From the NCBI RefSeq assembly GCF_017916325.1, contig NC_090168.1, positions 1,383,143-1,447,142 on the forward strand: 64,000 nt of DNA. Reading direction: 5' to 3'. This document shows, in pieces, positions 6,416-59,511 of this stretch. This DNA comes from Leishmania martiniquensis (Eukaryota > Euglenozoa > Kinetoplastea > Trypanosomatida > Trypanosomatidae). The notes under the pieces are model-generated. The model did no database searches. It worked only from the letters and a program-made list of their open reading frames with translations, and had not been told where the DNA came from. How positions within the stretch are numbered: the first letter of the stretch is position 1; every line of letters begins with the position of its first letter. Made by a program: the position numbers and the translations under genes.

Positions 6416-9400
6416 ATGCCAGCCGCAAACCCCCCTCTAGAGGAAGCAATGCAGGTGGCTGGCGTCCCACCGCCGTCATGGGCGAGCGAGATCGCTGCAA
6501 GCCGCGAGAAGGATGCCTCTTCTGCTTTACCCAATCCTGGTATGAAGCAACGCAGCGACTGCGATGCTCACCGGCAAAGCGGTGACGCCAATATTCCCGT
6601 AGGCAGCAGCGCATCTGGTCCGCTGCTTCCGCAGCGACAGCAGAGCAAAGGCAACCTCATGCTGATGGGCGGCGGCTACGGCAACTCGATGTACCGTCCC
6701 GGCATGAACGGGGGCTATGGCAGCATGTGCGATTTTGGCGGCATGAGCGCTGCGCCGCCCATGGATTCCATGTACGGCGACATGGGCGGGATTCAGAGCG
6801 GCATACGTGACTACGGCTCTATGGCTGGCTGCGGCTCCATGTACGGCGGCATGAGCGGCCACCCGATGGGCTCCATGTACGGGATGGGAGGCCTGATGGG
6901 CTCCGTGTACGGCATGGGAGGCCCAGTTGGCTCCATGTACGGCATGGGCGGCATCGGATACATGATGGCGCGCTCTATGAGTTTCTCTTCCTACGGCGGG
7001 AAGAGCATGTACGGTTCCATGGGTGGCAGCTCGCTCATGAACGTTGGCGGCAGCACTCGCAGCATTGGCGGCTTGTGGGGCACTGAGCCGCGCTACCAGG
7101 TGCGTCGATGCCCCGACCGTGAAATGCCAACTATGGTGAAAATGCTGCAGGACGATGATGAGGTGCAGAAGTGCCTTATTGTCACTGCCACAGCAAAGCA
7201 GGCCGAAAAAGACAGACAACTCTCCGAGAAGAGGGCTGCTGCTGCCCCGGCCAATAGCGCCATCACCGCGGAGGAGGACGAGAAGCTGATGGTAAAGAGC
7301 GACCAGCCAGAATCCGAGGAGCGGGCTGAGACGGAGGGGAGGCCGCTTGCTGCTAGCAATAGGGAGGTGGCCGTCACTGCTGCAACCTCCCCCGTCAGGA
7401 CCAACGAGGACAAGAGCGGCATCGCCGACCGCAACGGTATTCACGGCATCATCATCCTCGAGAACGCCAAGGACACAGCAGTGACGGTAGAGAGGATGGG
7501 GTCGGAACAAAAGGTTTCGCTGCAGGCGGCGTCTGGCCAGTCAGCGGAGTGTAAGGTTGGCGAGGTGATTGTGGGTGCCGACGCAGATATGAGCAAATCC
7601 GCCGTGCTAAGCATTGTTTCGATGCACTTACGCAGCGGCCACAACGTCGCCTTAATCGCTTTCGACCAGCGAGAGAAGATGGCGGCTGCAGTGGAGAAAG
7701 CTATCGTCGCTTTCTACGCGGACTCTCTTGGGCAGCTGGCAGCAGATAAGGAGTGGAAGGTAACCTTTTCTGCTTCGGCGATGTCGGGTACGAACAGTTA
7801 CCGTGACTTGCAGGACGAAGCGGCAGCAGAGGCCCAGGCGACAGGCATCTCGTTCGGCTCGAACCCAATTTTCGGCGCCTGCATTATGGGCCTCAAGAGG
7901 GTGGCCATGACGGATGTGGAGGCAGTCAGAAAGCATGTGAGGGACGTATTGGCGCAGAAGACGCGCCCAAAGGAGATTATCTTCATGCAGGCGATCGTGC
8001 GCATGCTCAAGGGGAACGACTTGCTTATGTGCTCAATGAACGCCTTCGTTGCCCGCGACAGCGAGACGGCGGAGGCGATCGCAATCCTTGACGACCGTCG
8101 TGTGCCCATTCCAGTGCTGCGCCCTGCCGTTCGCGGGGCGACGTGCACGGCCGCCGTCATCTCCCTCTCTGGCGCTGCCCCGGCGTCCGCGGAGGAAGCG
8201 GAGGCGATGCGCATAATATGCCCCCTGTGCACGAAGGAGGGCTTGCCGCCCCGCAGTGGTAATGTGCAGCGCTTCATCGAGTACACAAGCGAGCAGATCG
8301 GGCGGATGGAGAGGGAAATCGACAATCTCACCGGCGCTGAGAAGGACCGCCGCGTGCAGATGATGAAGATGCGAACAATGGCGAACGACGCAAGAGAGCT
8401 GATTGGCAACCTGAGGACCGACCCGAAAGTGTACCCTATTCACAGAAAGCGCAGCCTCTCCAGCGCGGCGCCGGCTGCTGCGGCCGACAAGGAGAGCCAT
8501 GCCGAGGAAGCCGCTGCGGCGTTGTCAGTCGGTCACGAAGGCAAGGCGCAGAGCCCGCAGAAGCAGACATGGCAGGCACAGGCGGGCGCTGCGACGCCAG
8601 CTGGTCCTTTCAGCTCCATCCACCGCCTTGTGTACCTCCAAGACGCCACGTCGCCGTCGATCGGGAAAGCGGTGAAGGTGGTTGTGGACGGGGAAATGAA
8701 AGAGTACGATGTGGACGAGTGCATTGACAGCCCTGCCGGCGCAAAGGTGCATTCCGTCGAGGAGTCCCGCCAGCTGAGGCGCATGGCGGCCGTGCTGGCT
8801 GCTGGCTTTAACATCGCCCTACTCGGTGCCGAGTTCACGGCGCCTACGCAATCGGAAGCGCAGGTGACATGGAAGTACGTGAGGTACCTCCTCACATCAG
8901 TGCTCAAGCCTGCCACTCCAGAGACTGCGACGAATGTGACGCTGCATATGTCTGTGGTTCGCGAGTGCGAGGTCCTGCAGGACCTCGTGTCCGGTGACGC
9001 GGCACCACATCGCCTTGTGGTGGCCACGTCACCGCTCTTCGGGCCCGTAGTGCACGGCAGCGCCGGTACCAAGATGAGCACGCCGGAGGACGTAGAGGAG
9101 GCAATGGACAAGGCGCTCGCCAACACCCGGCCATCCCTCAAGGATGGCGCGATGATTGTCATGACGGCGGTAGTGCGGCAGCTACGCCGAGACGATGTGA
9201 TGGTGGCTTCCCTCTTCGCCGTCTCCTCCGCCGACCTGAGACCGTACAAAAGCGTCTTCGAGCAGAGCTCGGGTCACGCCCGAACCCTCTTCACGTACTC
9301 TCTCGGCGGGCCGTCGTCCACCGGCGTTCTCATCACGGCGTCCCGTAAAATGGATTTGTCGGAGCTGGCGAGCGCGCTCAGCATGCAGCGCAGCGTGGCT

Positions 9401-59511: not shown

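Follow-up and report, generated by a model that had tools for sequence, protein, structure and literature searches.

Kinesin-like domains lacking motor motifs in an ARND/KIAP4 family gene array of Leishmania martiniquensis

A six-gene array encodes 13 copies of one kinesin-like domain

The window analyzed here is a 64,000-nucleotide stretch of Leishmania martiniquensis DNA (C33:1383143-1447142, within a searched genome of 32.3 megabases in 41 contigs), and it contains six long plus-strand reading frames of the ARND gene family, each opening with an ATG at the start given in Table 1. An earlier note on this DNA, made from its letters alone, proposed that the six genes carry 13 copies of a single domain type in the arrangement 3+4+3+1+1+1. 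This count is confirmed by a genome-wide search in which P1d1, the lone domain of P0001 (ATG at 57085), was the only query. The search identified 20 places, namely the 13 window copies, each with an E value of 6.4e-11 or better, and seven outside the window. Because the single-domain query alone recovers all 13 window copies, the domain count is independent of the profile that we built from these domains. The series of landmarks described in the earlier note sits at conserved alignment columns, and all 13 window domains share invariant E, D, three G and F residues. The first ATG and the last stop codon coincide exactly with the two ends of the span assigned to the cluster (6416-59511), but the array itself continues outside the window on both sides.

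The N-terminal tract that precedes the domains is of low complexity, repetitive, and rich in Gly, Ser, Met and Tyr, as judged by composition and repeat inspection. Arrays related to the 30-base repeat of P0001 lie at 6862-6952, 15832-15985 and 33910-34218, such that four of the six genes carry a 30-base array. The N-terminal part of P0005 carries a distinct tandem repeat at 42447-42701 (+), wherein a Pro/Ala-rich unit of 54 bases occurs 4.7 times (98 percent).

A profile made from the 13 window domains was also run against the sequence outside the window. Counting two weakly matching genes as one domain each, the genome holds 22 domains in 12 genes, with 11 genes on C33, which we take to correspond to L. 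mexicana chromosome 32, and one on C17. The genes outside the window are thus five on C33, including the two weak matches, and the C17 gene, which has the same length as LSCM1_05584 of L. martiniquensis and is identical to it across the region searched. The weak members, L024 and L027, are strongly diverged and contain large inserts. When used singly as the query, the L024 domain reaches the family at an E value of 5.6e-7, and the L027 domain does so only at 0.006.

Table 1. Coordinates of ARND-type genes, their kinesin-like domains and a coding repeat. Positions without a contig name are those of the window.
Feature	Position	Strand	Content or basis
ARND-type gene 1 (P0002)	6416..11002	+	3 domains
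Domain P2d1, first of P0002	7415..8422	+	alignment, genome search, domain tree
Domain P2d2, middle of P0002	8615..9562	+	alignment, genome search, domain tree
Domain P2d3, last of P0002	9965..10972	+	alignment, genome search, domain tree
ARND-type gene 2 (P0003/P0038), 1949 amino acids	15264..21113	+	4 domains; ortholog publicly named POMP22
Domain P3d1, first of P0003	16611..17585	+	site of whole-protein Pfam kinesin match
Domain P3d2, middle of P0003	17748..18710	+	model m958ce4bd3ff2, kinesin fold
Domain P3d3, middle of P0003	18948..19910	+	alignment, genome search, domain tree
Domain P3d4, last of P0003	20088..21095	+	alignment, genome search, domain tree
ARND-type gene 3 (P0004)	33241..37878	+	3 domains
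Domain P4d1, first of P0004	34684..35616	+	alignment, genome search, domain tree
Domain P4d2, middle of P0004	35794..36741	+	alignment, genome search, domain tree
Domain P4d3, last of P0004	36904..37866	+	alignment, genome search, domain tree
ARND-type gene 4 (P0005)	42111..44801	+	1 domain
Domain P5d1, single, in P0005	43782..44774	+	alignment, genome search, domain tree
ARND-type gene 5 (P0006)	52712..54850	+	1 domain
Domain P6d1, single, in P0006	53855..54826	+	alignment, genome search, domain tree
ARND-type gene 6 (P0001)	57085..59511	+	1 domain
30-base repeat in P0001	57825..58082	+	8.6 copies; codes Gly/Ser/Met/Tyr decapeptide
Domain P1d1, single, in P0001	58510..59484	+	model m194abadf3835, kinesin fold
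ARND gene left of window	C33:1373001-1378955		3 domains; profile match; coordinates cut by piece fetched
Weak member L024 (L024:3116-7900)	C33:1450116-1454900		broken profile match, E 1.4e-18
ARND gene	C33:1458665-1462333		2 domains; profile match
Weak member L027 (L027:1983-5492)	C33:1472983-1476492		broken profile match, E 2.3e-17
ARND gene	C33:1479197-1482580		1 domain; profile match
ARND gene on C17	C17:496403-499027		1 domain; profile match

The domains retain the core of a kinesin motor

The similarity of the domains to kinesins is significant in sequence and profile searches, one of which was run with shuffled and reversed controls. The whole P0003 protein matches the Pfam kinesin family (PF00225) at P3d1 with an E value of 4.7e-6. 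Kinesin is also the best fold match for the two domains that were modeled, P1d1 and P3d2, and the other 11 window domains are assigned by sequence. In four fold searches, each listing its best 50 matches, the matches listed are kinesin entries, except for a small number of axonemal ones (7n61, 9ijj) in which we take the matched chains to be kinesins. On the basis of the shuffled and reversed controls together with the fold searches, we reject a chance likeness or another fold. Thus, the comparison with known structures that the earlier note had proposed for the gene at 57085 reveals a kinesin core with kinesins among the matches listed, and its view that the domains derive from a kinesin motor gains support from the searches, their controls and the fold matches. 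Sequences and models together support the assignment of the domains, by descent, to the kinesin superfamily.

Retained features of this core are the sheet, the order of strands and helices, and the GG turn before β8, which the domains share with the kinesin motor along with its sequence profile. A conserved stretch at the domain end, RSGxVxxFIxY, is aligned by HMMER with the kinesin-3 neck region, weakly when taken alone (E 1.2). Among families other than kinesin, a Pfam scan of the 13 single domains returned eight, one member each (best E 0.05). An NCBIfam scan of the six proteins returned one match (E 0.017), whose 15.8 bits compare with a cut-off of 99.1.

The nucleotide site, the switches and half of the α4 region are missing

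Unlike the kinesin motor, the ARND domains lack the GxxxxGK[ST] motif (Walker A or P-loop), the SSRSH motif of switch I, and the DLAG motif of switch II, each of which is absent from all 22 domain slices. One looser P-loop match occurs in P3d1, about 50 residues ahead of the P-loop position. This looser pattern occurs seven times in 52 proteins (two being other window frames) and, judged from the coordinates, none of these occurrences falls where the P-loop would be. The loop from α3 to β6, which is the site of switch I, comprises 6 to 14 residues in 20 of 22 domains, and 33 and 29 residues in the two weak ones. Because the nucleotide and switch parts are missing, the domain, as read from its sequence, cannot cycle as a motor.

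L11, α4 and L12 form the main microtubule contact of kinesins. In 21 of 22 ARND domains, the distance from the end of β7 to the second G of the GG turn, which spans these elements, is 27 to 31 residues (65 in the L024 domain), whereas kinesins of the same genome have 59 to 89 residues from DLAG to LGG, although the end points of the two spacings are equivalent to within a few residues only. The kinesin landmarks were located in 13 of 28 loci, wherein two pairs represent the same gene, giving 11 genes; the other 15 loci gave no measure. On these spacings, about half of the L11-α4-L12 region is gone. Each of the two models has a 7-residue helix in the α4 region, followed by a second short helix of four or six residues.

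Lineages of first and single, middle, and last domains

We constructed one tree (tree A) from 22 ARND rows (20 from this genome and two C17 orthologs) along with 26 kinesin loci, and a second (tree B) from 48 ARND domains with kinesins left out. In tree A, the ARND rows constitute one side of a branch supported at 100/100, with a very long stem of 2.95 changes per column. In tree B, first and single domains group together at 99/99, the single-domain genes at 99/98, the middle domains at 95/94, and the last domains at 90/90, the last of these not being starred. First domains alone do not form one group (two changes; they are grouped with the single-domain genes), and the L022 gene places none of its three domains in the first, middle or last group. 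The tree program warned of meeting long branches, including inside these groups.

The simplest reading of these groups would be that P0002, P0003 and P0004 arose from a common three-domain ancestor, that P0003 added a second middle domain, and that the single-domain genes retain the first type. A three-domain ancestor for the entire family is not borne out for all members, as the L022 domains are ungrouped and the first domains are not one group. We give about even chances to a broader scenario. In it, a kinesin motor would have lost both its adenosine triphosphate (ATP) site and the helix that grips microtubules before trypanosomatids diversified, and its domain would have come to be repeated as three modules (first, middle and last) in one protein. 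Copies of this protein would then have been cut back to a single module or lengthened to four, yielding a class of kinesin-derived scaffolds for insect adhesion that need neither motors nor microtubules. We had rated this scenario slightly better than even, and lowered this estimate because the ancestor does not fit all members. The distinction of first, middle and last types allows multi-domain genes to be ordered, which is impossible with whole-protein trees.

The array belongs to the known ARND/KIAP4 family

The kinesin-like array is an already known family. In the available excerpts of PMC13416946 (PNAS, 20 July 2026), to which all statements from that paper refer, KIAP3 TurboID identified a gene array on L. 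mexicana chromosome 32. The ARND family defined there comprises 11 genes, these being the LmxM.32.2890-3010 array and LmxM.17.1030. The excerpts describe nucleoside triphosphatase (NTPase)-like domains whose best fold match is “invariably” kinesin and in none of which Walker A is conserved, and they report that coiled coil and intrinsic disorder are predicted for every member. The L. martiniquensis genes are alike in their array plus one chromosome 17 gene, their NTPase-like domain or domains, their kinesin fold match, and their lack of Walker A. Relative to these excerpts, there is no difference in kind; we count 12 genes instead of 11. The two weakest, L024 and L027, may or may not be represented among the published 11, and one of them may be absent from that list. 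Our analysis adds evidence of kinesin descent at the sequence level, shows that switch and α4 parts were lost, traces the domain lineages, and may extend the list by one gene. Among the matches listed in the open-licence PMC literature, we found no other paper on the structure of this family.

A probable scaffold role in the adhesion complex

According to the same excerpts of PMC13416946, the attached-flagellum signal is strong for seven of the 11 L. mexicana members, KIAP4 resides in the plaque next to KIAP3, and KIAP4 null mutants adhere poorly and are unable to colonise the valve of the sand fly. Leishmania thus depends on the family, by way of KIAP4, for its hold on this valve. KIAP4 itself probably corresponds to one of the single-domain genes P0001, P0005 and P0006.

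We consider it probable that the window genes are the L. martiniquensis ARND (KIAP4) members and that their domains are nucleotide-free kinesin cores acting as rigid cross-linking modules in the adhesion complex. A kinesin core would have lost nucleotide binding along with normal switch and α4 parts, and the stripped core would now serve in protein-protein contacts as a rigid module. Present in one to four copies per chain, behind the low-complexity Gly/Ser/Met/Tyr-rich tract, these modules would cross-link each other as well as KIAP3 and other partners in the adhesion complex of the attached flagellum. A rigid repeated core combined with a repetitive N-terminal tract would suit a cross-linker in a dense plaque, and protein-protein interaction is also what the authors of PMC13416946 propose in the excerpts. 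Our analysis demonstrates homology, the fold of two domains, the missing motifs and the domain lineages, and the flagellar signal of seven members and the location of and need for KIAP4 are taken from PMC13416946; we infer that the modules cross-link, what the N-terminal tract does, and that the reading extends to all six window genes.

Several observations weigh against this reading. The PF00225 score of P0003 (26.3 bits) is under the cut-off of 29.3, five of the six window proteins have no Pfam kinesin match, and Pfam assigns kinesin to only two of the 13 single domains (E up to 1, best 9.9e-4). Structure models cover only two of the 13 window domains. In addition, according to the excerpts of PMC13416946, four L. 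mexicana members out of 11 went undetected, were not selected or gave only a weak attached-flagellum signal, and the T. brucei paralogue POMP22B is mitochondrial. Because of these last two facts, some window genes may do something else.

The authors of PMC13416946 also speculate, in the excerpts, on septin-like filaments, which would shape the flagellar membrane and are compatible with a scaffold. Single-domain members have a matching layout of low-complexity N terminus, NTPase-like core and C-terminal helices, but the sequence and fold matches listed are kinesins, with none named septin, and we regard such filaments as unlikely.

The domains might instead bind microtubules independently of ATP and dock the adhesion complex on flagellar microtubules. 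A precedent is the motor homology domain of the yeast kinesin-14 partners Vik1 and Cik1, which according to the excerpts of PMC4338441 is likewise kinesin-like without ATP binding, and which retains a microtubule site and pairs with the live motor Kar3. The ARND domains have kept the kinesin core in both models, but their chains carry up to four dead domains, and the halved L11-α4-L12 region, with its short modeled helices, argues against a microtubule site. Conservation of the α4 remnant is divided. In the C17 domain (L030; C17:497987-499006), the shortened stretch is among the best conserved parts across 27 C17 rows (mean 0.93 versus 0.66), and only 3 of 333 alignment windows, itself counted, are equally conserved. 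In the four domains of the POMP22 orthologs (12 rows each), the remnant is not specially conserved, as 123 of 307, 294 of 303, 144 of 303 and 123 of 319 windows match its level of conservation, and the same holds among P0001 orthologs (five rows; 76 of 307 windows). A conserved α4 remnant serving as a working face throughout the array is thus rejected, being seen in the C17 rows only, and microtubule docking appears quite improbable.

A third alternative places the four-domain P0003, and perhaps others, at the mitochondrial outer membrane instead of in adhesion. The L. guyanensis ortholog of P0003 is publicly named “Present in the outer mitochondrial membrane proteome 22”, T. brucei POMP22B is clearly mitochondrial, and the L. 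mexicana ortholog may be among the four members that are not strong in the attached flagellum. Given the strong flagellar signal of the seven others, and the treatment of POMP22B as an exception among T. brucei paralogues in the excerpts of PMC13416946, we consider this location very unlikely. We find it scarcely credible that the domains still function as ATPases through a nucleotide site of unusual type, since the fold and the conservation of the family would permit this but Walker A, SSRSH and DLAG are absent from every domain here and, in the excerpts of PMC13416946, none of the ARND domains conserves Walker A.

A scaffold built from kinesin cores would resemble the kinetoplastid calpain-like proteins KIAP2 and KIAP3, which, in the excerpts of PMC13416946, likewise reuse a dead enzyme domain in the same adhered flagellum; theirs is a calpain, whereas that of ARND is a kinesin. 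The family illustrates a route from motor to building material. As its cores miss more than the ATP site, structural biologists should seek a new binding face and not a motor.

Orthologs and the interval between the second and third genes

All 11 P0003 ortholog entries given have four domains, with the fourth split in two pieces in P0041. The L. mexicana ortholog (P0042) was found by a protein search whose output carries no gene number. Close relatives were recovered in three protein searches, of which those with P0001 (five matches) and P0003 (13 matches) returned no match named Trypanosoma, perhaps for insufficient reach, because the excerpts of PMC13416946 list several Trypanosoma members.

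Relatives of P0003 and P0001 are CUR178_02075 and CUR178_02080 in L. enriettii, and ABL78_2825 and ABL78_2820 in Leptomonas seymouri. The numbers within each pair are five apart, which matches the window if a 323-residue frame at 26462 counts as a gene, and they would fit a conserved gene order. This coding-like frame (26462-27433, +), located between the second and third genes, is Gly/Tyr-rich and matches no Pfam family above the cut-off. Its N terminus is rather similar to that of the C17 family member, and its codon score of 0.213 lies inside the range of the six genes that trained the score. Within the interval of about 12 kilobases between these two genes (21114-33240), only one short frame scores as coding by this codon measure. 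The plus strand of the interval is T-rich, with an AT skew as low as -0.335.
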